64,000 nt of DNA from Dysidea avara (lineage: Eukaryota > Porifera > Demospongiae > Dictyoceratida > Dysideidae), in contig NC_089275.1 in the NCBI RefSeq assembly GCF_963678975.1, forward strand, positions 24,427,977 to 24,491,976. Direction: 5' to 3'. Position numbers and translations under genes: made by a program. The notes under the pieces are model-generated. The model ran no database searches. It worked only from the letters and a program-made list of their open reading frames with translations, and was not told where the DNA came from. This document shows, one piece after another, positions 32,401 through 53,552 of the stretch; position 1 is the first letter of the stretch; every line of letters starts with the position of its first letter.

Positions 32401-35400
32401 GCATTGTGAATCCATCCCCCACACTTTGTCATCAACAAACAACCAGAGCTGTCTAACAAGTGGTCTCTTCACTTCAGGACGGACACACTGGGATTTGGCA
32501 CTAACCAACTCCTTTGGGTACGTAAGCTCTTGGCAAGCTTGGACCCATCTGGTCTGTGCAGAGCTGAGTTCTACAGCTGTTAGAGGGCCATTCAGCTTAG
32601 GCTGTGATCTGCACAGGTTGTTGATAAATCTAAGTGTGTATGCTGTGACAGCTAGTAGCTTGGGCGGTAAGTTATAGTTGCTCAGCTTGATGACCTGGTG
32701 TAGGCCAATGTCTGGACTGGCAGGCGGTTGGGGGATGAATTCCTCGACAGTGGCTGCAGCTGCATGTAAGTGGATTGCTGGCTCTGGCTGCCATGTTGAC
32801 CAATTCTGGGGCGTAGTCAACCAAGGTGGACCCTTCCACCACAGGGTTTCTGGTGAGCAGAGAAGTTCAGAGCTGAATCCTGTGTCAACAGGTCAGCTGG
32901 GTTGTTGGCTGTGGGACAGAAGTTCCAGGTTGCACCAGGGATAGCTCCCTTGATCTCCAGGACTTGGCATTGCACAAATTGTGGCAAAGCCTTAGTGCTG
33001 AAGAACCATCTGACTGTCTCCCCAATAATATGTGAGGGTATCCTGCAGCTGTAGAGCATTGCTTACGAACTTGGCAACTCTTGAGGCAATAACTACCGCC
33101 ATCAGTTCCAGCTTCGGTAAAGTCAGATTCTTCAAGGGGGCTACACGGTTCTTGGCAAGCACAAAGGTCACTTCACTACCACAGGTAAAGAAGGCCACTG
33201 CTCTGTACGCCATAGTGCTGGCATCTGCAAACACGTGTAGTGTAACATCGGCTCTGGAGAATCCCTTCTTGAAGTAGTGTCTGTCAATGGCTGATTCAGA
33301 CAGCCTCTGGATGTCATCCATGATAGTGGTCCACTCTTCTCTGACAGTAGCATCTAGGGGCTCATCCCAGTCAACTGCTACGGCTTCTGTATGAACAGTT
33401 TGGCACGTACAGATATAGAGATAGCGATACCTAGGAGGTCGGAGGCATCTTTGAGTACCTCTTGCTTGGTTGTCAGTGCGCTAGTATTGTGGTGTAGACT
33501 ATTCAATGATAGTGACAGGTGGTCGGTAGTAGTAGCCCAACGTATCCCGAATACATTAATTGGATTGGTCTCATCTGATGTCCTATCTAGCTGTGCAGCT
33601 TTCATCAGTAGCTTGCTGTTGGAAGCCAGGCTCTCAAGTTGAACTTTGCCTCACATACACTGTAGCATAGAGCGAGCTTGCTCACAAAATCAAAGAGCTT
33701 CCTTCTCTGTGTCACACCCTGTAACAGTATTGTCAACATACAGGTTAGTGTGAATTGTGTGTGAAGTGCATGTGTTGTACTGCAGCAAATGGTGGTTAAG
33801 CACAGCAAACATCATAAATGGTGAACTCACAGATCCGAATAATACTGTACGAAATCTATACGTGTCGAACTTGCTGTTTGTATGGTAGGATCCAAGAGCC
33901 AAAGGAACTAAGTAAAGTCACGGTCCTTCTCATGCAAGACAATGTGGAGGAAGGCTTTCTCTATGTCTATAGAAATGCCATATTGGTGAGTGCAGAAACG
34001 TAGAATGATTGAGGTAAGGTCATTAAGGAATGGGGGACCTGTCAGAAGGCAGTCATTTAAACTGGGGTGTTCACATGACTGACGGCAGCTGCAGTCATAT
34101 ACTATATTTATGGGAGTCGTACATGAGTTCTTCCTCACTGGGTGATGTAGGATGTAGTGGGATACACCACTCTCACTGGGTTCAGTGACAAGTTCGATGA
34201 AGCCCCTGCTCAACGTCTCCTTAAGGATCTTGTTGTATGACTGCAGCAAGCCTGGTGATTGGGCAAGTCTATTAGCTAATGATCTGGTGCGGTTCTGACA
34301 CACTTCAAAGTTGTCTGGTAGTGGTGGTGTTCCCTTTTCTAAGGGAAACCAGCACAATAGGTCCCGTCACTCTGCCTTTAGATGTGACAAGTGGTATATG
34401 ATACCAGAAATTGGTGACCTGGTTTGTCGGATTCAGTTGGTGCAATTGCAGTGTCCTCTATCTGCCAGAATTTTGTCAGATCACATTCCACCTGGTGATA
34501 GCCTGTGATAACATGCAGAGAGTTAACACTAGCACTTACTGGTTGAGGAAGCAGTGCAGGCCCTGAGTGTAGATACCCGAGCTTTGAGCTCATGGCTGTT
34601 GGGCCGGCTCCTCTGATGATGTGGTCCCCAACGAGGTCTCAATAATGGTCTGCACCAATGAGCAAGGATATCTCAAAGTTCTCTGATGCTGTGATTGGGT
34701 GTGCTAGTGGTAGCCCCTTCAAGTAAGGTAGTTGTAAGACATCTGTATCCAGGGGATTGGAGATAGGGGTGGCAATGGTAGGCACTACAAGTGCTGACAG
34801 TGATACCAGTTCTCCTGATTTGGATAGACACTGTATCCATTTGTCTGTGTAAAGGCTTCTCAGCACCAAAGGATGACAAGCTGATGGTTTCAAATTTGTA
34901 CGGTGTTAATGCCACCTCCTTTGCCAGTTTCTCTGTGAGGAAAGATCGCTGTGATCCTTCGTCAAATAGTATATTAGCTTCCATCTGCAGGTCAGTTCCA
35001 ACAATAGTGGCAATAGCAGTCTTCAGTAGACAGGTGGTGTTCTTGGGAACTTTATGTGGTACTAGGGTGGTAAAAGAAGCAGTGTCAACAGTAGCGGTTG
35101 ATGGTGGAGCTGTTTCGCTGGTAGTCTGGCTGGTGTTACTAATATCTCCTTTGGTTGAATCATTGCAGATACTTGTATGATGTTTGTTACCACACTTGTC
35201 ACTTGCAACAGCGGTTCTTTGAATGGTATTGAGATACACGGTGATGGGCAAGACAGTTGTAACACAGCCATTGTTGCTTAATTATCTCCACACGAGATGA
35301 CACATCCTTGTGTACTTCACAAATAAGTGCGGTATGATTGCCCTTACAGAACACACAACTTAACTTGTTGCCAGTTTCCTTTCTGCCTTGTGGTTTAAAA

Positions 35401-38400
35401 GAAGGCAGTGGGATTCCCTTGTTAGCTAGACAGAGGGAATGTTTGCTGGCCTGTCTCAAAGATTCGGATCTCATTGCAAATGGTAGCCTAAAGTTCCAAT
35501 GCAGTCCATTCAGCACTGGTGTGATTTCTGGCCATGTTTCTCTTAGTTTCCTCAAGCAACTTGGTCAATATCATAGGAACCAGCAGTGTTGTCGAGTGAC
35601 TCTGGTGATTTGCCAAGAGATTGTAAGCAACAGACATGGGTCTCGATGGTATCATAGAGAAGTCTGAGATTGGCCAACCTATTACCGTATAGCGCAAAAT
35701 TTTGGCGGTGGAAAACATTGGCGAATTTGGCGAATAATTTTTCCATTCGCCAAAGTTTTACCCTCCAAAATTTTAGCCTTAATTGTGTCTGGTGCGGCCG
35801 CCCCTTCGCATAAAGAGGAACCCGGCTCGAATCCACTCTATGCGGAGGGGTGACCGTGCCAGTCGCCATGCAGACTAGCTATAGTATAGGTGTTGTGTGA
35901 GTTAACGTTAGAATGGCTGGTATTCTGAAATACTTTAAACCTGTGCCGACTCCATCATCGTCTTCTCCGAATCTTCCTGATCCAGATGGGCCGCTCAATA
36001 GAAAAATTCCAGCTAAAGCTATTGAATTGGCTAATGCAAAAGTTGCAGAGGCGACCAAAGTGCCACGTGGTCGTTCGCCATATTTTTATCTCACACCAGG
36101 TCAACGATACGAAGTAGGCAAGCGAGCTGCAGAACATGGAGTAACAGCTACTCTAAGGTATTATGCTGAGAAATATCCGAAACTTCCTCTCAAAGAAACC
36201 ACAGCAAGACGCTTGAAAGATTTGTACAAGGACACATTGAAACCTAAGGCGAAATCAAAGAAGGCCAAGCCGAAAGATGAGGGCTCCGATGTAGCCTCGG
36301 AAAATTCTGATGAAGAGCCCACGAAAGAGACAGAACCAGAAGAGGTAAAAGAATTGCCTCGTAAGAAAACAGGGCGGCCTTTGCTGCTAGGGGCTGATAT
36401 AGACACCCAAGTACAGGAATACATCAAAGATGTAAGGAGGCGGGGCTTAGCCGTTAATACTTCTGTAGTCATCGGCAGTGCACAAGGTATTTTGTTGTAC
36501 AAAGATGCAAATCTTCTTGCAGATAATGAAAAAGGAGCTGAAATTGAATTATCAAAGGACTGGGCAAAATATTTACTGAAGCGGATGGGGTTTGTGAAGA
36601 GAAAAGCCTGCAGTAAAGCTAAACTTGATGTTGAACGGTTCAAAGAAGTGAAAGAGGATTTCCTGTTAGACATTAAGAACATCGTTGCCATGGATGACAT
36701 TCCTGCAGAGCTTGTGATTAACTTTGATCAGACTGCTCTTAATTATGTACCAGTTACTCCCTGGACAATGGAAAAGCAAGGAGCAAAATAAGTTGAGGTG
36801 GTGGCTAAGGATGATAAACGGCAAATTACTGCAGTATTTGCTGGGTCAATGTCAGAAGATTTCTTGCCACCTCAATTAATTTATGAAGGTAAAACGACTC
36901 GATGTCTGCCTCAATATAAATTTCCTTCCTCGTGGCACATAACCTATTCAGATAACCATTGGTCCAATGAATTCACAATGAAAGAGTATGTTGAGAAGGT
37001 TTTGGTACCTTACAGCTGTATATTAACAGAAAACGAGCTGAACTGAATTTATCATCCAACCAACCTGCATTGCTCATTTTTGATAATTTTCAAAGCACAG
37101 ACCACTTCTTCTATGCTTAAACTGCTTGACAGTTACACAATCAATGTTGCTTTGCTCCCTGCAAATTGCATGGACAGATTACAACCACTTGATTTAAGTG
37201 TCAATAAGGCAGCAAAGGATTTCTTGCGCTCCAGGTTCCAAGATTGGTATGCTAAGCAGCTGTGTTCTCAGCTACAGGAAGAGTCAGAAACGCAAGCAGT
37301 AGATTTGAAACTATCCACAGTTAAGCCATTAAGTGCTGGATGGATTGAGTCCATGTACAATTACTTCAAGACTAAGCCTGAAATAATAAAGAATGGGTTC
37401 AAAGAAGCTGGGATCACTAACTGCTTGACGTCTGCAGATTCTGTTGCACCAAACACTGCTTATAGTGCCTAGCATATAATGACATTCTGCTGTAACTTTA
37501 ATCTGATTAGTTTCAATTTGATTATATACTAATGACAATCAATTGACATGTATAACTAGTGTAGTTTGGTCACAGTGTAAATAGATTAAGACTGAAATTA
37601 TTTACAATATACTACAACTCAGTATCTAAAGTGTTCTGCCAACATTACGTACGTGGGAATGGGGAAATACGATGCTTGTTAAAGCAGTTGATCAAATGTG
37701 CTCTCATTGATTCTTGCTTCAGCTGTAATTTGTTTAAATTTATCCCAAATGCAAGAGCTGTTGCAAAAGCTATGGCAAAAATCCCACAGTCAGTCCCTCC
37801 CTTCTGTTTTTGGGACTGCGAGACTGTTATCTTGAGCTTCTCTGACCCTACCTGGAACAGATTAGCAATCACATGTTCTGTTTCCTTGTCACAGTATTGA
37901 AATAATGAATCATAAACTCTGACTTCACCAAGCTGACAATTCAATGTTGTGGCAACTATCCAATGGCGTCTGCCTTTACAATGTATGATCTGGACTTTGT
38001 TCCTGACTAAAGTTTCTGTCATTTGTAACCGTCTGTCTTGGTATAATGTCGACACTAAACCATTCAGTTCCGAAAACTGTTCTTTTAATAGTTGCTGTGC
38101 AAAATTAATCTCAATATCACACAACTCTTCTCCCATTATGATTCTTTCTGTGTCAATACACTTAACCCTTTTCCTCAGAGGTGGCGCTTCTTCTGGACCT
38201 TCATTATGCTGCTCAGGTACAATTACAACAGGTAATTCGCAAGGTTGCTCTGAGGAAACCACAAGTTCCTGTCCTTGATTTGCAGCTGCAGGCAATGCTT
38301 GTTGATTGGTAGGTCGAGTAGGTGCACAAACTTCAAACACTTCCACTGACAGTGTGGACTGGATCAGTTTCTTAGCTTTCTGGCATTCATCGGCGTTAAC

Positions 38401-41400
38401 GGACTTGAAGATTAATTTACAAGGTATTTCTAGACCACCCTGAGGCAAATCCGAGGAGTACCTTCGAACTCCATTAATTATACAAACGAGCAATCCGCCT
38501 CTCCTAATAAATAACGAGCAAATCGTCGATATTCTTCTTGGCACATGACCTACAATTCGGTCACTTCCTCCTATTGCTTTCTTCACGGCCACAGCATACG
38601 GATCGTGACTGTTGCCAGGCTCACGCTCACATCCAAGTTCCTCGCCAATTATTGGATCATTCCATATTAGTTGGTATTCATGGTATCCGCGTATCATAGA
38701 TTCCACAGAAAGTATGAAGTCGAAACCCGCCATGTGGATGCTGCAGGATCAGTTGAGCCAATCACACACTCTATTTACTTCCCATCGTCACGTTACAGTC
38801 CCAGCTACATGACCTGTAAGGATATGAATTTAATATAGCTATAGTTATATTCATAGAGGCACAAAGGTTGTGCACAGCTGTTATAGTTTTGATACAGACT
38901 AGACCTCACGGCTCGCGGAGCGAGGGTGTGGCTATACCACACTATAATATGCGTTGGAGTTCAGGTTCTCCGTTTGGTGTAGTGAATGTTACGGAGAATT
39001 TGGCCGGGTTCGACTGTTTCGCTAATGTTTTACACTTGGATAGTCAGTGGAGCATTTCGCCAAAGTTTTTTTCGCCAATACCATTTTTTTGACGATTCGC
39101 CAAAGTTTTACGCCACCAATGTTTTGCGCTATACGGTAGATGGTTTAGGGAGATCTAGCAGGGCTTGAACATGGGCACTAATGATTCGATGTGACTACCC
39201 ATAGTGATCTTTCAATAGGGTCACTGAGGTCTGGTAATTGGTGTTGGTCAGGGGAAGCCTAGTAATCACTCTTGATGCCTCGCCTCGCAGTTGGGCTCTC
39301 AAGTAGGTCACACCTGTTAGAGTTGGGTTGGTGTCAATGGCAGCTTGGAAGCAGTCCCAAAGAGTAGTTTTGCCAAATAGCCTTTGTGGCCGCGGCTTGA
39401 GCAAGTGATCGTCCATTCAGTAGTCTCCGATCGCAGCACCAGAAATGATGGGGGAAATGACAATATAGTACAATGTTCGGGACGTGCTCTTCGTGATGCA
39501 CACGGATACAATATCACTCTACAATGCCATCACTATTCATTATGTGATAAGCTCTAAATATAGCACAGCATTACCATATTATATGTGTGTATGCGTGTGT
39601 GTATACAGTTAATCACATCATCAGATGAGCTGGCCCAACAGCCATGAGCTCAAAGCTCGGGTATCCACTCTCAGGGCCTGCACTGCTTTCTCAACCAGTA
39701 AGTACTAGTGTTAACTCTCTGCATGTTGTTACTGTCTACAAGGTCATCTCCTAATACTTCACTACTACAGGGTGTATACCAGTCTGTGTTAGCTGATTAA
39801 TTTCTTGTTACTGTCATCTTGTACAGCTGCTTTGAAGTAGCTATGATGTTGTCCTGTACTTGCAGATTAAATCCTCATTTGAACTCAAATCTCTCTCTTA
39901 GGACTTGCTCTGCAATGATGCTCCTTGCTGTGGCCTTGGTTTTCTAAGGTGGAATGCAGACTTTGCAGGTTTGCTTACTGGGCTTTCTTCCTGAGGCAAC
40001 TACATTTGAATAGTTTTGACACCAGGTTTGTAATAAGGTTATTCCATGAATTTTTGCAACACAATACATGCATTGGAGAACAGAGATGCTTGGTGTTACC
40101 ATTATAATTTTAACTTATTTTTGTTATTTCTTTTATGATGGAATCTGCCTTCGGCTTGTTTGATAGGCTGTCTGATGTACTTAATTCTCTACATGACCCA
40201 TCAGGGGTGGTGGAGCAGGCCAAAGAGTGAGAGGGCCAGGCTAGCTGTAAGTGAAGACCCCCCCCCCCCCCCCAAAAAAAAAAGGTAACTAGGTAACTAC
40301 CTGCTGACAATAGCTTCCCTCCACCAACTATATCTCCTTATTTATAACTACACATGGTAGCTTGCTATACTGCTCCTCTGACTACTGTGACTGTTCTATT
40401 AGAGTATCTCAATCTTTTCTTGCAAACATTGTCCCATAAAAGTGGGGGGGGGGTGGCAATAGCCCCCCTGTCTCCACTGCCCATGTGACCCTTACAAAAC
40501 TCTCATTCACCACACCCCTGAGAGTTCAGAAGACTTTTGCTGTAGCACTCTCTATCTGCTTGGTTGCTTGATTGTGTTCTGTGCAACTTTACTTTTCATG
40601 AATCTGTGAGAAGTATCTGAATCAATGCAATGTACCATGCATCAGCTCATATCCACTCACGGTTTGCACAAAAAGCACAAAATATGCAGTATAACCCCAG
40701 CTGCAGTGGGATCACAGGAAAAGTTTCATGGTTTTCCGTCAATAATGTCATTCTGTATTCTATAAGCCTGCATGCTATATGCTTAATAAATCAAACTGTA
40801 GCACTAGAATTGTATTTACATTAGCTTTTATCTGTGTACAAAGGTTCCTGTGTGTATTACAAGTATGTGTGCTCTATTCCATACCCAGAACATGTGATGG
40901 AGAATTGGAAGATCCTGATTTTGAAGGAATTAGTTATGTTATTAACTTTTTACAAAGGTGAGTGTAACACTATTTGTTGCTTACACCACATAGAGAGAAT
41001 GCTTGTATATTTACATTCTAAATACCTACAGTGCCAATAGGAGTGTAGGATAAAAAGACTATAATAGTTACAGTAGGTTGCTAACCTTGTTAATGAGGTC
41101 ACGAAGTATACCCTAGTTATGTTTTGATGGCCACTATATTGGAGTGGTCTTAACTTAAGAGGTAGCTGATATGGTACAGTTTTAATTTGTCCTACTGGTG
41201 TCACAATCAGTCTGCCAGTTGATGTAGCCAATTCACTTTAGGATATTTCAATTGAGGCTTAAAGTGCTAATGCATAATAGTAATAATGCTCTATCAGGGC
41301 TCAACCCAGAAAATAAACCTAGAGGGGGCGAAGTAAGTTGCTTTGGATTCTAGGGGGGTCTGGGGGCATGCTCTCCCAGGAAAATTTTGAAAATTTAGGT

Positions 41401-44400
41401 GTAAATATACTCATTTTTGGTGAAATTTTACTGTGATGCCATTGAATATTGACCATTGGATTATACAACTTTGGGACCAATTAAACCTTTCCATTTCTCA
41501 AGGCTTTAGGTATAAACCTAGGGGGGGCAATAGCTAACCCAGAGGGGGCCTGTGCCCCCCCCGCCCCCCCCCCCCCCCCTAGATTAACCCCTGTCTATGA
41601 TTATGAAAGTATCACGTATTTTATAATTACCGTATAGTATTTTGTTTTGTGTTGTAAATAATACAGTGTATATCCTAATAAAGTAGTCACCCTACTACAA
41701 CAGTCTAGCTAATATTAGTGATGCTGCTGATGTCATCCATGTGCAGATTCAATTTTGGAGAGTTTAATTCCCAAAAATTTTATGCCCCCAGACCCCTACA
41801 TAGTCATACTGTTCCTGGATACTAAATTCCTCGAGATTGAGGCACTCTGATCATAGATATTTGTAAGCTACCGTAAGCGTAGAAATTTTCATGGTGTATA
41901 AATTTTCATGGATTCCGTGGTACGTCTTACCCACGAAAATTAATCCACCCTAGAAAGATTACATACCAAGTTGAGTTGCCATCAATGCGCAATCAAACCC
42001 AGTGCCATCGTCGAGGCCATCATCTGTCTTGATCCGTCCTTGTCTAAATAATGCACCATCACTTCTTTTTAATGCACCATTGTGCAGTTTAGTGACACGT
42101 GAGGTACGAGGTGAGGTAAAACCGCCTGATCACAAATTCACGATGAAGTCTTTATTATCGTATTTCAATCGTCAGAAAGAGGAGAAAACAACGCCTAGTG
42201 AGGACGATGATGATACTTCTAACAAGGATAGCAAAGCGCCCTCAAGCAAAGTTGTTAATGAAGCTTGCCACCTGGTTTGTTTGGTGGAAGAACGTGGGAA
42301 GAGCAAAGGTGATTACATGAAACTTTCACTTACAGAAAAGGCAACCATCGGGAAATATGTTAGTGAACACAGGGTGGTAGCTGCTGTTAAGGAATTTGAT
42401 AAGAAGAATCTTTTAAAAGGAAAGCAGCGTTAGGGTTGGCGAGATGCCTACCTTAAAGATTTCAAAAAGAAAAATCAAGAAGCCAAACCTAGTGAGAAGG
42501 TTTTTGTCACCTCACTTTCCACCAAAAAAACATGGAAGGCCTGTGCTTTTGGTTGCAAAGTTGGATGAACATTTGCATCACTTACTGGTTGAGATGAGAG
42601 TAAGAGGTACATCTGTTGGGACTACTGTAGTTATGGGTGTTGCTGAGGGAATACTGATGAAGTATAAATCCCAATTCAAGAGTGGCATCAAGTTGAACAA
42701 GGAATGGGCTCGGAGAGTTCTGCACCACACGGGGTTTACTAAAAGAAAAGTCAACAGTAAATCCAAAGTGCTTCCAGAGAATTTTGATGAAATTAGGGAT
42801 CAATTCCTGACTGATGTACGATCAGTCATTTAAATTGAGGATGTGCATGGTTATCAACTGGGACCACACTGCTATGAAAATTGTCCCGTCTATGAATTGG
42901 ACAATGAAGAAGAAAGGAACTAAAAGAGTGGAATAGCTGGTATCGATGATAAACGGCAAATAACAGCAGTTTTTGCCTGTGCCATGTCTGGCAAGTTTCT
43001 ACCAATGCAGTTAATATATAAAGGTACAACCACCAAATGCTTACCTAAGCTTAAGGATGAAGGTTTTCCATCGGATTGGCACATTACATACACTGCAACC
43101 ATTGGGCCAATGAGACCACCACAATGGCATATCTTAAAAAGGTGATCGTTCCTTATGTTAAGAAAGAGAGAGAAAGACTCAAGCTTGATAACACCCATTG
43201 TGCACTTGCCTTGTTTGATGTGTTCAAAGGGCAGTGCACTGCCAAAGTCCTTGAACTGCTTGAAGAAAATAACATTCTTTTTGTCACAGTTCCAAACAAT
43301 TGTACTGACAGGCTCCAACCATTGGATCTGTCAGTAAACAAGCCAGCCAAAGATTTTGTTCGAGCTAAGTTCAGGGAGTGATATGGGAGTCAGATTTGTA
43401 AACAACTCGATGATGGCATAAAGGAGGATGTTGACATGAGAATGACTACAATGAAACCGATTACAGCTCAATGGATGATAGATTTACATGGTTATGTTTA
43501 GTGATGTGCGATGATACTTGATATGATGATACTTGATACTTATCGGGCAATACTCCAGCTGTATCGCGATACCGATACACATGTACACATATCGATATTT
43601 AAACTTGGCTTCTTTGTACAAATGATGCACTGTATTGCATATCGATATTGTATCGTGACTACGCAGCTGTTAGATACAGATATACCATTTCAAGCATATA
43701 ACACATCACTAGTTATGTTTCATCTCGACCCAGTATTGTGATGAATGCACATGGTTTCTGAGCTGCTGGCCTTTAATACCATTGTTAACATATAGCTACT
43801 TACTCAAGTTTATTTGATTATTATATTCTCAAAATGTACAATTAATTGTTCATTTGATTTGTAAAATTATTGTAAATTAAATCAGTCATCAAGTTACATG
43901 TCAATTAAACAGTACCGGGTATAGCACACATACATGTACTTCAGTTATGGAATCATGGAAAAGGACAGATACACCTTTGTTCAAAGCAAATTTGTAGGTG
44001 AGGACGTAAGCTATCTTGCTGAAACCTAAAACCAGATTCAATGCCAAAAGCTAAATTTGTAACAAAAGTAACAGCATATACTCCGCAGTCTGTCACACCC
44101 ACTTGTCTTTGTACAGTAGCCATGCTGAAGTTGATACTTGACCCCAGAGCCTTTTCGATCTTGCATTTTGTGTTTTCATCCACATCTGTGTACAGCGAAT
44201 CATACACATTGATCTCCCCAGGTTGGCAACCAATAGTGCTCACTGTTATCCAGTGACAACCTCGGCAATGCATGATTGAATGTAATTGTTTGTCCAGAAG
44301 CCAATGGAATCATTCAGAAGAGTATTTTTCAGGCCTTGATATGTAGGGAACTGATGCAGTATCAGCTTCTGTGCAGTATTCATGTGTGTATCTGTTAATT

Positions 44401-47400
44401 CCTGTCCCACTGAAAGGATCTCTCTGTCTGAAATTTTTAACACAATATTAAATATACGGACCCATTCCATGTTAGCATTTTGATCAACTTCTTTGCCTGT
44501 CTGCTCTTTACTATCTACTATTCAGCTTGGCTCGCTTTGCAGGTTTATTCTCAACGATCACATCCTCATTCTTCACCTCATCCTTACCACCAACGTCCTT
44601 AGTTGACTTACTTGTTGCAACTTTAGATTTTGCAGCAGCACTTGCTGAACTCGTTGCTTTCGTTACTTTCTGTATGTATTTTGGATCTCCTGTGAATATC
44701 AGCAGGCATGGAATTTCCAGTCCTCCCTGTGAAATGTCACGTGAATACTGCTTGCTGCCCGTAACTTTGCAGTGTATTGTCCCACCACGTCGCATAAACA
44801 AAGAACAGATTGCAGAAATTTTTCTGGGCACGTGGCCGACAACATTTCCACGTTTTATTACAGATACAGCAAACGAATCAAATGCATTTCCTGTCTCCAT
44901 TGTACATTTTAATACTTCACTACGAGTGGCCTCCCATACATCCTTGTAGACATGGTAGCCCCTCACGACAGAATCGCAGTAATATCGCACCATTTCTTTT
45001 GGTATTTTGGAGAACCACGGAAGTGTACGGAGTTAACTAGCTAGATTTGTAATGGGTAGCTAGATTTGTGATGAAACTGCACAGCTATGTTTTCTTCGTT
45101 GCCATCTATTATTATTAGCGTCTTCTATCGCTTGCTTTGGCAACTGGCACTGGCTGGCAAATGCAAGCTACCCACAAAAATAAAGACCCACGAAATTCCC
45201 TTCTGACGAAAACACAAAAATTTATCCTGCAAAATTTAATACGCTTACGGTATAATATCTGTGCTCTAATAGAGCAGTCACTGAATACAACAGTCAATAT
45301 CAAGAGTTCATAATAATTATCTGTATACAAATTAGCTGACAGTAGTATTCTGATTTCAGAGGGTCTAATTTCAAACTTTCATGGAGGGTATTCCCCTAGA
45401 CCCCCTATACTGACATGTTCCAGATGATAGTGTGCAAGACATGTCATCTCCTGGATAAGCACCCCCTCCACATAAAAAGGGTGACTTATTCAGGGAGGTA
45501 CATGCTTAATCATCTATCTTGTAAAGTCCAGTTGATTCACTGGAATTGCAGGTAGCAAAGCATTTGTATAGACAACTATTTGGTGTAATACAATCAGCAC
45601 AAGTGTTCAGAGGTATTTTTAGAGGGCTAAGCCCCTCTTTGATGGAGCTACAGCACCCTTTGCCCCTACAGCACCCTTTGCCCCCATGAATGGCTGGTAC
45701 ATATGTGTACAAAAGAGAAAATGAACAGGGTGTTATAGACAAAGCAACTGTTGATCACTGGGTCTGAGCTAGTACATGTGTACTTGTATGAATTCACTAC
45801 ACTCATGTTTATTGTGTTACAGATATCCTCATGAAGATTTAGTTTTCAAGTATACAAAATGGGCTCTTCATAAAAATGAAATGCTTGCCGCTACAGTGAG
45901 TATAATACGTTCATGTACATTATATGTAGTAGTCAATTGGTAGTTATGTACAATAGGGGTGAGCAGCATTGACCAATATCATACCACGATATTTTAATTA
46001 TAGTTATATTGTGGTGTTACTAAATACCCACTAAATATGTATAAGCTTCCATTACATCAATAGCCTACACAGTACTTACTGTACTCTTCAAGTGGGAAAA
46101 CAACTTGGAGGTGCTGGCCAGCAAACTTTTTTTGACAGAGGTGACAAATAACACTCCCATATTTGACTTGAGCACCTTTCTAATAGTCTTATGTTACACT
46201 CTTTGCTCCACTCTTGCTAACCAGTTCTGCTATAATACTGTTTGAATAATTTGAAAACAGTTAATTTTGGTATTACTGGTATTCTCAGTATGTCTGTACA
46301 CGTTATTAATGAACGTTAAATATTTAATTATTCAGTTTAGAAAAAAACAAAACTAAATTAAATATCAGTACATGTATATTGCCCTCTGCTAATATACAAT
46401 TCACTTTAGACATTACTGCATACATGTGTGATGTATTATTTTATTGCTTAGATTTTTACTGATCGTCCAAAGAACGAGTATAGCAGCGATTCATTTTTAC
46501 CAGAAGTTGTGCTAGATTGTTTAAAGCCATACCCTACTGCCTCCATGCTATATTTGGAATATTTAGTATTTGTTCAAAAGAGTGAGGTAAGTACTTAATA
46601 GCAAAGTTGTCACACTGTTTTTACTCTGTTTGTGTAAGTAGTAGTAGTAGCATACTATGTGTATTATAGAAAGAAGAAAATCATACTGAGTTAGCAAGCC
46701 TCTATGTGGATAAACTGTTGAAGATTAAAACCCGGTACAATGATGACTACAGGAAAGCCAGGTACAGTATTTGTGGTGTATTGAAATGTGTATGTTCTAT
46801 TAGAGTACTATACTGTAGCTTATGCTGCAAACTTACTATAGCAGATAGAACAGCAAGATTTAGTGTATACTTATAGTATTTACAGTGTAATTAGTGTATT
46901 TCCACAATGCGTTACTTTTTTGTCATTACATCTATGCTTTTCAACTAAGTACTGTATGTGTATTGTCATAGTATGCATGCGTACATGGTTAGTAATTAGT
47001 TGTTTTTCTATGGGTTACAGGCAGGCCTTGAAGACGTTTCTAGAGAGTTCCAATATGTATAGACCAGCTGTTGTATTGGGTAAGATCAAGGATACTGACT
47101 TACAACTGGAGTGTGCTTTGGTCTATGGAAAGGTACTTATACCACATGTTGAATTTGTTTTGTGAATGCTGTGTTTAAATGTCTGTACACTGTACATGGC
47201 AGAAATAATGTTCAGAATTCCATCCCCAATAGTTTGGTATAAACCCCTACTGGTATTTATACAATGGTTTGTTAAAATACTCCAGTGGAACATATGAACA
47301 CTCCATTTGAACTGTCGCATTCATAGTTTTTGTAATACAATAAGAAGATAATTTAGATATTTGAAACAGCACTCACAATTAAAGATTCGAAGATTGGTTG

Positions 47401-50819: not shown

Positions 50820-51647
50820 ATAATGTGCAATATAATATTTTTACATGAACCTTACATAATTTTTGTAATATCATAATTGTTTCTAAATTACATGGCCATA
50901 AAATGTGGATTAAGCAAGTTATCATCAGTATAGTTGTTATCAAATCAGCCTTAAAAGGTCATGTGCACTACACCCATCAGCTACAGATCATGTCTCAGTA
51001 CCAGAATAGATATCTGCATTATGTAATTTGTAAAAAGGATTGAAAATTGCTAGGCCAGGTTGTAGCTTGAAACCATCCACATCTGATGAACTGTCATAGT
51101 ACAAAGTGATAAAAATTCTGTTAGTGCTTATTAGCTATAGTTTGGTTGGTCCAGATTTTGTCAGCAGGTCCAGTTACAAATAGCTGCATTCTGGCAATTC
51201 AGTTTATAGCCTAGGAAAGTTAGTAAAACTACTGTGGATTTTATCATGTTTGTATAGTTATCTGAAGAAAAGTCTGGCAAACACTCAGGAAAGTATATAC
51301 TAGCTAGCTAACTGGTGACATTTGCACACAAAAACTCTTGACAAGCTAAGATCAAGAGTTTGCTAATTTTACGTGGGGCTGGCAACATAAAATAAAATTT
51401 CTACGTTTATTTAATCAGGGAAAATAGCATCAGCCTAAAAGGCTGTTTTCAGCTAGGTCTATGCCATGAGAGCACAATAAACAAGACTAGACTCCTGACC
51501 CCTTGTAATTGTACGTACATGGCTAAGTACCTACCTCGGTACAACCTACAATAAAATCTTTCACCGTTTTAGCACTGTACAGTGCTTTAGGTAAGCTGTT
51601 CTGCTGCGATGGGTGGGCGTTAATAAGAGCTCTTATTCCTGCTAATT

Positions 51648-53552
51648 ATGCAGCATGTGAACGACCGAGATGTCTCAGAAAATAAAGAGAAGATTGGAGA
51701 GCCCACAAGCAAATTTGTAGCTCTTCCTGCTGAATTACTAGTTCACATATTTGGTTTTTTAAGCGACGTACGAGACCTGGTTAAAATTCGTTATGTTTCA
51801 CGAAAATTGCGTAGTGTTAGCGAGACTCCGTCGCTGTGGAGGAACTTTACCTGGTCGCAGTTCGACAGTGCTGAAGAACGCTGTGTGAGGAGTGTGCTGA
51901 AATCGTGTGGGAAACACGTTAAACAGTTATGTTTTCCTGATCACGTGACGCCATCTAAATTGGTATCAATGTTGAAGCACTGTAGTCATCTTATACAACT
52001 AAGTATTCCAACAAGCAGTCTGAGTGTTGTTCAGTTGGGAAAGACGATAGAACCAATGAGAAACTTGGAAAGGCTAGATGTTCCATGGAATGGTGACATT
52101 AATCCATTACTTTTGATTAGTGCTAGGCTGAAAGAGCTCACAATTAGAGAAAAGGTCAAGAAACGAACTTCCTTCTCCTTTGATATGGCATTGGACTCGT
52201 GGATGGATAACTGGGTAAAAGAAGGATTTCAACCACAAGCATTAAAGATTGTCAGCAACACACTTATTCCACCAGAAAAGTTAACCCGGTGCTGGTTTCA
52301 TTTGAATCCTAGTTCACCACCTGGACGTACTGGCTGTCTCAAAGTGTATCGCAGACTCAGAGTTCCAATGGATCTGTTTCCTGCATTACCAGAGTTCCAA
52401 TTACAGTTTGGTCAGTCATGTACTCTTCCATATGTGAAAGCCAGCAAGTGTGGTTTATTAGGATTGGAAAGGGACCTTTTATTATTGACCAATTGTACTG
52501 ACGGTGACAACATACTGCACAAGGCAAAAATGGTCATGCGGAGTAACATTAATGGAGATGGTCACTTGAAAAGTGACATGACCGATCTTACTTTTGTAAC
52601 CCATTTTGATGCTTCCCTTTGTAAATTGCTTCATTCTGGTCATCTTGAACAACTAGCTGTGATGTGTCCTAATTTACAGCAACTAAACTTGGAAGATAAT
52701 GTTAATTGTTTAAAAAGTTTACAAGGACTACGTGTGATTGCCAGTTGTAGTAAACTACAAGGACTAAATCTGTTAGGAATACAAGTTAAGGATGTTGAGA
52801 GTCGTGTTCGGTTATGGGAAATATTGGTTGATCTGAGACTGCTCTATCTTGCCATTGAATTGTGTGTTTTGTTACCTTATGGAGAAGATGACCAAACTAA
52901 GCAAAAGATAATTGGCTTTTATCAAAAGTGTTCAAAATTGAAAGCATTGGAATTGTATCGTGGAGATCTTTCACATTGTCCCAATTGTAGAAGTTTTATT
53001 GGTGGACAAACATCAGTACTATCCAACTTTCCATCGCTTACAAATTGCTTAACAGGTAATATTGATTACACTGCTGTGCAAGACATTGTCAGCAACTGTA
53101 CAATGCTTAAATGTTTTAGGTATCATTTTAATATTCCATTGTCATGTGAGTTAACACACAATTGTACCTTAGAGCAGCTATTTATTAGAGCAAGTAATTC
53201 AGTTATTCCTGACAGTTTCATGCATGTAGTATCTGCTCATGGTGGACTAACTCATGTGATTTTGTCTGTGGGCGCAGTGACTGCTCAAGGTGTTACTACT
53301 CTTATTGCAAATTCTCCAAAGCTCAAGACATGCCATATTAATTCACGTTTTAGGCAATTCTCTGAAGATTATCAATTCAATGTAAGAGATTTCATTTCAG
53401 CACTAAAAAAGAAGTTCCCAGACAGAAAACTGTTTTCTTGTGGGAGTTTAAGTTTAACACAAGAAAGTACCTATATTAAATTTGATGCTCTAAATTATTT
53501 ATTGATTGAGCGTAACACAGACCTTACTTCATTGTGGTCCTCACTGATTTGA
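51648..53552 (+). CDS. F-box / leucine-rich protein, intronless
   Basis: A single open frame of 634 codons. Residues about 23-68 are an F-box: FVALPAELLVHIFGFLSDVRDLVKIRYVSRKLRSV...PSLWRNF. The remainder (about 75-610) has leucine-rich irregular repeats (HLIQLSIPTSSL, NLQQLNLEDNVNCLKSLQGL, KLQGLNLLGIQVKDV, TLEQLFI), as in FBXL proteins. By family knowledge it would join SKP1 in an SCF ubiquitin ligase and recruit a substrate through the LRRs; the substrate is unknown. The lack of introns next to a 33-exon gene suggests origin by retroposition or a lineage-expanded single-exon family. The start ATG is the first in frame; the gene lies about 830 bp past TGFBRAP1 on the same strand. Confidence 0.9.
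   Translation: MQHVNDRDVSENKEKIGEPTSKFVALPAELLVHIFGFLSDVRDLVKIRYVSRKLRSVSETPSLWRNFTWSQFDSAEERCVRSVLKSCGKHVKQLCFPDHVTPSKLVSMLKHCSHLIQLSIPTSSLSVVQLGKTIEPMRNLERLDVPWNGDINPLLLISARLKELTIREKVKKRTSFSFDMALDSWMDNWVKEGFQPQALKIVSNTLIPPEKLTRCWFHLNPSSPPGRTGCLKVYRRLRVPMDLFPALPEFQLQFGQSCTLPYVKASKCGLLGLERDLLLLTNCTDGDNILHKAKMVMRSNINGDGHLKSDMTDLTFVTHFDASLCKLLHSGHLEQLAVMCPNLQQLNLEDNVNCLKSLQGLRVIASCSKLQGLNLLGIQVKDVESRVRLWEILVDLRLLYLAIELCVLLPYGEDDQTKQKIIGFYQKCSKLKALELYRGDLSHCPNCRSFIGGQTSVLSNFPSLTNCLTGNIDYTAVQDIVSNCTMLKCFRYHFNIPLSCELTHNCTLEQLFIRASNSVIPDSFMHVVSAHGGLTHVILSVGAVTAQGVTTLIANSPKLKTCHINSRFRQFSEDYQFNVRDFISALKKKFPDRKLFSCGSLSLTQESTYIKFDALNYLLIERNTDLTSLWSSLI

Follow-up and report, generated by a model that had tools for sequence, protein, structure and literature searches.

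A transposase is usually regarded as all that a cut-and-paste transposon needs. HIRAN domains are known from helicases and prokaryotic proteins, and HLTF and Rad5 are SNF2-type translocases. Elements of the pogo superfamily are 1.2-5.2 kb long (PMC7386202, PMC9976928); transposases are given as the products of their one or two ORFs (PMC7386202). In Passer, a DD35D lineage of pogo, terminal inverted repeats (TIRs) are mostly <30 bp and the only ORF has 400-500 codons (PMC9976928). The transposase of Ginger1 resembles Gypsy integrase and carries a C-terminal Ulp1 or OTU domain (PMC2836005). Oomycete CryptonF and some CryptonS elements, which are tyrosine recombinase elements, encode a C48 peptidase besides the recombinase (PMC3212892). 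The ciliate elements TBE and Tec, relatives of Tc1/mariner, have additional ORFs: a small ORF and a zinc finger protein in TBE, and a site-specific recombinase in Tec (PMC7325037).

We analyzed a 64,000-nt stretch of Dysidea avara DNA (the window) and confirmed an earlier observation, made from the letters alone, of a transposon that pairs a pogo-type transposase with a HIRAN–C48 protein. By its sequence, the element is a two-gene pogo-superfamily DNA transposon. It resembles pogo DD35D lineages (Passer, Fot-like) in its DDE_1 domain, DD35D spacing, TA target duplication and size (3.0-3.5 kb), but has a second gene, unrelated to the transposase. Although it shares DD35D with Passer, it falls outside that definition: it has TIRs of 42-51 nt, two genes and a transposase of 516 codons, open throughout in the related copy L039. 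Like Ginger1 it is a DNA transposon with an Ulp1-type domain; however, its peptidase is in a separate gene and fused to HIRAN, which is not named for Ginger1 in the available portion of PMC2836005. Neither is HIRAN named for Cryptons in the available portion of PMC3212892, and the additional ORFs of TBE and Tec, which have the same group of transposase, are of other kinds.

A whole-word literature search found no paper naming HIRAN and pogo together, and the matches listed for HIRAN, transposon and Ulp1 were unrelated, judged by title. PMC12730594, found in the literature on Kyakuja, Dileera, Zisupton and Ulp1, does not mention pogo, HIRAN, accessory, peptidase or SUMO.

Termini and transposase gene

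The features of the window are as follows, with the complete element (copy 1) first.

35683-35684, no strand: TA target site, left copy; the uninterrupted target is present at 9 other genomic places
35685-35726, no strand: left TIR (CCGTATAGCGCAAAATTTTGG...); 85.7% over 42 nt
35913-37472, plus strand: pogo-type (DD35D) transposase gene, broken
35913-35939, plus strand: PIP-box-like transposase N terminus (MAGILKYFK), of putative function
37645-38733, minus strand: intact HIRAN–C48 accessory gene of 362 codons and a stop codon
37648-38142, minus strand: C48 (Ulp1-like) peptidase domain with His257, Asp275, Gln310 and Cys316
38143-38406, minus strand: variable linker spanning residues 110-197; it includes one hydrophobic/acidic stretch and a cluster of basic residues
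38407-38721, minus strand: HIRAN domain, residues about 5-109; Pfam match at residues 29-83
39095-39136, no strand: right TIR
39137-39138, no strand: TA target site, right copy
41869-45252, no strand: second, diverged, broken element of like layout (copy 2), with TIRs TACCGTAAGCG.../...CGCTTACGGTA (TA included)

We found that copy 1 has inverted arms of 51 nt (35676-35726 and 39095-39145; 82% complementarity), and that the element proper (35685-39136) has TA on both sides. In the window, each end of copy 1 carries one exact match to the terminal pattern TACCGTANNGCGNNAAA and no further exact match exists; one additional site differs from it by 2 mismatches. We joined the flanks without copy 1 (146 nt) and searched the genome with them. 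Of 11 matches, two were the window's own flanks and nine, elsewhere, spanned the junction, two of them at 92% and 89% identity. The arms, the TA pair and these empty sites bear out the matching, TA-flanked termini of the sequence-only reading. Read across the joined target site, the three frames stay open for 70, 2 and 62 codons, respectively, which we did not count as proof.

The transposase gene of copy 1 is interrupted by a stop at 36789 and by a frame-shifted stretch near a stop at 37044. DDE_1 was matched in pieces, below the Pfam cut-off when split, and the QPLD signature is present. The sequence-only reading was thus right about a DDE transposase with QPLD, but had omitted that the gene is broken. 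P0001 matched DDE_1 with 50.9 bits (cut-off 22). The three Asp residues and the DD35D spacing were kept in 16/16 open transposase frames, which were picked by a pattern containing the third Asp. Among segments picked by profile (those that span 70% or more of the profile), the second Asp was kept in 44/45 and the third in 45/45. For the DNA-binding domain, of HTH_Tnp_Tc5, CENP-B_N or Brk type in the pogo superfamily, scores in the window clade stayed under the cut-offs: 17.5 bits for HTH_Tnp_Tc5 in P0001 (cut-off 22.2) and 14.3 bits for BrkDBD in L063 (cut-off 23.4). A search with these two profiles matched neither in L071.

The core of the PIP-like motif was present in 8/8 subfamilies with a readable transposase start, a count that excludes L066 and loci truncated before it. 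This N terminus would bind PCNA, judging from its motif. Drosophila Pogo transposase was reportedly found to bind PCNA in 1998. In our searches, we found no paper joining a pogo transposase with PCNA, and the sole match for transposase, PCNA, PIP box and transposition concerns LINE-1.

The accessory gene and its peptidase

The minus-strand gene of copy 1 is a single open frame of 362 codons counted from its ATG, intact as had been claimed. Both of the domains proposed for its product scored above the Pfam cut-offs: HIRAN at 29.5 bits (cut-off 24.7) and Peptidase_C48 at 23.1 bits (cut-off 20.7). All four catalytic residues were as originally assigned. Structure prediction recovered a HIRAN fold for the N-terminal part, HIRAN being among the fold matches listed. 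A Pfam profile search found no motor domain in the accessory protein, unlike HLTF, which has translocase activity (PMC11237066), and Rad5.

As in Ulp1/SENP peptidases (C48), the His, Asp, Gln and Cys are in order, and the domain gave weak profile matches to SENP1/Ulp1 (E 0.015-0.62). Its sequence is remote from theirs, and we regard it as a putative deconjugase. Fold comparison gave weak matches, with adenovirus proteases among those listed. The peptidase might therefore mature the transposase or some other protein of the element by cleavage, as viral proteases of the same clan do. We consider this very unlikely: only two proteins and no polyprotein were seen in the element, and some family members have HIRAN without a peptidase (below).

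A strict SIM-like core was found in the linker of 6/10 subfamilies and is absent from copy 1. NLS-like clusters and a broad SIM pattern were each present in 9/10 but were not informative (shuffle p 0.04-0.35 and 0.35-0.91, respectively).

Conservation of the gene pair

Copy 2 has TIRs at 41869-41889 and 45232-45252 and the convergent gene layout of copy 1, as first described, though both genes are broken. It matched HIRAN (25.7 bits), C48 (22.2 bits) and DDE_1 (28.8 bits), and is about 52% identical to copy 1 in HIRAN and 43% in C48. Across the genome, the accessory gene was associated with a transposase in 83/83 cases among the matches listed, with hits on one element merged by position; the pairing is not chance, as had been argued from two copies. 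TA|CCGTA was found at both ends of 14/17 assembled elements inspected; one end is altered in L022 and in L023, and no such pair of ends was identified in L020.

The catalytic His, Asp and Cys were kept in 47/47 profile-picked C48 segments and the Gln in 46/47, down to about 38% identity. The whole set was kept in 23/23 open accessory frames, picked by a pattern that includes Cys316 and counting the window copy twice. Because these residues are kept over such wide divergence, the peptidase appears to be selected in the main clade. The dN/dS was about 0.15. Divergence of the three modules was matched in a distance comparison of profile-cut segments (39 loci, 13 subfamilies, near-copies collapsed). 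An earlier comparison of 5 loci (r 0.31, 0.41 and -0.16, equalled by 987, 799 and 2813 of 5000 permutations) was dropped; its open-frame patterns were too strict.

Transposons capture host genes, and many copies here, copy 2 included, are broken, so the accessory gene might be a functionless passenger captured by chance. The constant association, the low dN/dS, the kept residues, the matched divergence and an accessory gene that is intact in copy 1 although its partner transposase is broken led us to reject this reading, which we regard as extremely improbable. At the sequence level, these comparisons establish the architecture and show that it is constant throughout a diverse family of many copies; they also establish co-inheritance of its parts, retention of the catalytic residues and the predicted HIRAN fold. 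A tblastn search with the accessory protein, then with a 10-member alignment (A2), found no relative in prokaryotic and viral contig collections, a result that says little on other animals.

A proposed role of HIRAN at 3' ends and the donor site

Our results are consistent with the original suggestion that the accessory protein localizes to replication or repair structures and edits SUMO; we regard it as supported, the architecture directly by sequence and the mechanism by inference. The transposase (DD35D, TA target) would cut and paste the element, and PCNA bound at its PIP-like N terminus would tie it to replication or repair forks. Excision would leave 3'-OH ends on element and donor site. 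HIRAN, encoded by the convergent gene and joined by the variable linker to the Ulp1-type cysteine peptidase, would bind these ends and deliver the peptidase where SUMO joins PCNA, repair factors or the transposase, aided in some subfamilies by the SIM-like stretch. The protein may compete there with HLTF/Rad5-type remodellers, which would strip proteins from cleaved ends through the same HIRAN contact. By taking off SUMO-like modifiers, the peptidase may help the transpososome to survive and promote repair that restores the copy at the donor gap. We hold this mechanism as a whole tentatively, at a little below an even chance.

Five members (L007, L070, L072, L074 and L076) are HIRAN-only versions with no C48 profile match. 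HIRAN accompanies transposases of three types, and the HIRAN-only versions adjoin several types; the HIRAN tree is poorly resolved (12/25 inner branches open). The L001/L005/L006 type is suspected of carrying an intron. Because HIRAN-only versions exist, the core function would be end binding or competition, with deconjugation added to it. One could go further and take the accessory protein as a dominant-negative competitor of HLTF/Rad5, its peptidase minor or self-processing; the isolated HIRAN domain of HLTF is dominant negative for Cas9 removal (PMC11237066). The retention of the catalytic residues argues against this, and we think it improbable.

Silencing of animal transposons depends on SUMO. 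The peptidase could instead de-SUMOylate host heterochromatin or piRNA-silencing proteins and keep the element expressed, with HIRAN just a DNA anchor. Ulp1-type genes on several unrelated transposons, including Ginger1, Mutator (PMC2836005) and Cryptons (PMC3212892), would suit a target common to all. However, this leaves the HIRAN-only versions and the PIP-like motifs of the partner transposases unexplained, and we judge it rather unlikely.

Beyond the PCNA/3'-end/SUMO mechanism, HIRAN may be a general accessory module of the pogo superfamily that had gone unnoticed. Its HIRAN–Ulp1 form would be a transposon-encoded replication-fork factor that, with PIP-box transposases, takes over PCNA/HLTF/SUMO control at 3' ends and thereby places excision at sites from which the lost copy can be regained. 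This wider proposal is possible but doubtful. A long-open question is how cut-and-paste elements gain copies through replication or repair. HIRAN would join the parts recruited by mobile elements, and its pairing with a SUMO-protease-like domain could let such an element act on the host replication and repair machinery. A domain of the 3'-end-binding type, in most cases fused to a SUMO-type peptidase, was present at all of the related transposase loci examined. The family names HLTF/Rad5, PCNA and SUMO as host targets, and elements with both genes open exist in which these targets can be tested.

The window element, its ends and its genes

The sequence-only reading had described a pogo-type transposon with matching ends flanked by TA, in which a transposase gene converges on an intact gene for an accessory protein joining HIRAN to an Ulp1-like peptidase (C48). 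The window features are:

35685-39136: window element (copy 1), with a plus-strand transposase gene and a convergent minus-strand accessory gene
41869-45252: second element, both genes broken
34676-35564: degenerate retroelement-like frames, in the repeat hit by the insertion
35730-35780 and 39050-39115: TTCGCCAAAGTTTT-type motifs repeated inside both element ends (seen by eye), possible candidates for transposase-binding sites
51627-53549: open frame of 641 codons with an F-box match (45.1 bits), probably a host gene

We found that the accessory gene was indeed intact, a single minus-strand frame of 362 codons from ATG. Its product scored 29.5 bits against the HIRAN profile (cut-off 24.7) and 23.1 bits against Peptidase_C48 (cut-off 20.7). 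The transposase gene does lie on the plus strand, convergent to the accessory gene, but it is broken, by a stop at 36789 and, around another stop at 37044, by a stretch in a shifted frame. A copy on contig C7 has an accessory protein 99% identical to that of the window and an open transposase of 516 codons (DDE_1, 50.9 bits), to which the window remnant is 95% identical. The second element has the layout of copy 1, as had been claimed.

The matching ends were also confirmed: the inverted arms are 51 nt long and 82% complementary, with TA on both sides of the element. When the flanks were joined without the element (146 nt), 11 matches were found in the genome. Two were the window's own flanks, with the TA common to both. 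The other nine cross the junction uninterrupted, with identities of 92% and 89% for two of them and 69-77% for the remaining seven. These nine matches show that the element inserted at a TA within an older repeat and that the TA was duplicated. One frame of this repeat (34676-35281) matched a DUF1758 peptidase at 20.0 bits, below the cut-off of 22, and we take the repeat to be, probably, a BEL/Pao-like retroelement.

Pairing, co-inheritance and mobility

We searched the window's own genome (550.8 Mb, 108 contigs). An open transposase query gave at least 88 matches, at 83 loci. Among the matches listed, 75 of the 83 loci had an accessory or HIRAN match less than 4.5 kb away on the opposite strand, and none had one within 4.5 kb on the same strand. 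The remaining eight all contained an accessory gene or part of one in the 3' flank, on the opposite strand (in L058, the C48 part only). In contrast, 6 of the best 150 DDE_1 matches had a listed HIRAN match within 5 kb (at least 6, versus 0.27 expected under uniform placement).

Pairing was less complete when seen from the accessory or HIRAN side. The accessory query gave at least 140 matches (106 loci once merged by eye); together with at least 100 HIRAN profile matches, the union was at least 177 loci, a lower bound. Thirty-six of the 106 accessory loci were without a transposase among the transposase matches listed. All 38 loci examined around HIRAN or accessory matches had a transposase match, that of L008 being of another type, as did 7 of 10 further HIRAN loci; none was found within the flanking DNA examined at L062, L065 and L069. 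L062 (448-1083) encodes a different HIRAN protein (30.9 bits; several copies), whose branch in the HIRAN tree is long; no related transposase was found in the 4 kb examined. Further listed HIRAN matches share its frame length of 212 codons.

Both proteins were conserved. His, Asp and Cys were present in all 47 C48 segments picked by profile, broken copies included, and Gln in 46 (the exception was a stop). Open accessory frames had all four residues (23/23; picked by a Cys-containing pattern, with the window copy in twice). Open transposase frames kept three Asp with DD35D spacing (16/16; the picking pattern contained the third Asp), and of 45 transposase segments picked by profile, 44 had the second Asp (there is a gap in the window copy) and 45 the third. 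In one contrast (L020/L021/L029 versus L025-L028), the accessory gene had a dN/dS of 0.13-0.16 and the transposase one of 0.12-0.13; wider contrasts were saturated. Across 13 subfamilies (39 loci), transposase, HIRAN and C48 distances agreed (r = 0.864, 0.885 and 0.861, each reached in 0 of 5000 permutations); a first comparison of 5 loci was not significant. As judged by sequence comparison, these results show the identity of the parts and their co-inheritance.

Seventeen elements were pieced together from contiguous segments. In 14, TA followed by CCGTA was found at both ends, which are 3.0-3.5 kb apart with differing flanks; one end was altered in L022 and L023, and the end pair of L020 was not identified. 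Both genes are open in eight of the 17 (L010, L020, L023, L024, L025, L031, L032 and L033). Synonymous distances of 0-0.03 for close pairs within subfamilies indicate that those copies are recent. The window-type terminus had 14 exact genome matches, all at accessory loci (compared by eye); a reversed control had none. The L005-type terminus occurs at 58 sites with at most one mismatch. Two pairs of it enclose 233 bp (C1:13527482-13527714) and 185 bp (C3:5253488-5253672), too short for either gene; they are probably MITEs that the same transposase mobilised.

In L001, L005 and L006 (also L002 and L071), HIRAN and C48 are in two overlapping open frames of 166 and 239-242 codons, split further in L071. 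Since several copies share this split, an intron may account for it.

HIRAN genes without C48

Some accessory genes encode HIRAN only. L007 and L076 have such frames (128 and 117 codons), convergent to a window-clade transposase, with no C48 profile match found. L070 contains a 2.26-kb element (157-2415; TACCGTATTGCC ends) whose HIRAN-only gene, of 133 codons, converges on a different pogo-type transposase (DDE_1, 57.8 bits; HTH_Tnp_Tc5, 45.3 bits); more of the listed HIRAN matches have this frame length. L072:1155-3756 and L074:1510-4188 are 2.6-2.7 kb long, have TACAGTGGAACC ends and carry a HIRAN-only gene divergent from a Tigger/CENP-B-like transposase (in L072, DDE_1 129.3, HTH_Tnp_Tc5 73.1 and CENP-B_N 24.1 bits). 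L073 and L008 show the same divergent combination. Profile search gave no C48 match in L070, L072, L073, L074 or L008. Based on these loci, HIRAN recurs beside three transposase types, and the C48 part is optional. With a HIRAN tree this weak, one acquisition could not be told from several. At L075, a HIRAN match lies ~2.2 kb upstream of another DDE_1 transposase, on the same strand.

Precedents and a proposed role at 3' ends

TIR transposons that carry an accessory gene are a known kind. Ulp1-type domains are on record for transposons of the Ginger1 and Mutator groups (PMC2836005) and for some Cryptons (PMC3212892), and extra ORFs for some ciliate Tc1/mariner relatives (PMC7325037). The main text of PMC7325037 has no mention of 'accessory', 'peptidase', 'protease' or 'HIRAN', and that of PMC7386202 none of 'accessory' or 'ORF2'. 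HIRAN together with pogo was not found in any paper of the literature searched. Within that literature, HIRAN as a transposon accessory, and HIRAN–C48 within a pogo element, appear to be new.

The post-cleavage complex of DDE transposases has free 3' ends. Cas9 is removed from cleaved DNA bearing a free 3' end by HLTF, which depends on its HIRAN domain for this activity; the isolated domain blocks the removal (PMC11237066). Since HIRAN of HLTF acts at such ends, we propose that the accessory protein binds those of the transposon post-cleavage complex, where it would compete with HLTF/Rad5-type remodellers. The main-clade protein would also strip SUMO-like modifiers there, the transposase meanwhile being tethered to PCNA. 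We infer end binding, deconjugation and a benefit to transposition.

The motif [ILMV]xx[FY][FY] was found within the first 12 transposase residues in all eight subfamilies with a readable start (e.g., MAGILKYFK, MKSILQYFK and MSKSILDFF; p = 0.0008-0.015 in shuffles of the first 40 residues). In sequence it resembles the PIP boxes found at protein N termini, though it lacks their usual Gln. A canonical C-terminal PIP box was absent from the L070 and L075 transposases and present in those of L072, L073 and L074 (QTDLLQYF, QSTLDDFF); the L008 transposase is cut off. A PIP peptide that binds PCNA has Pogo transposase as one of its parents (PMC4103810).
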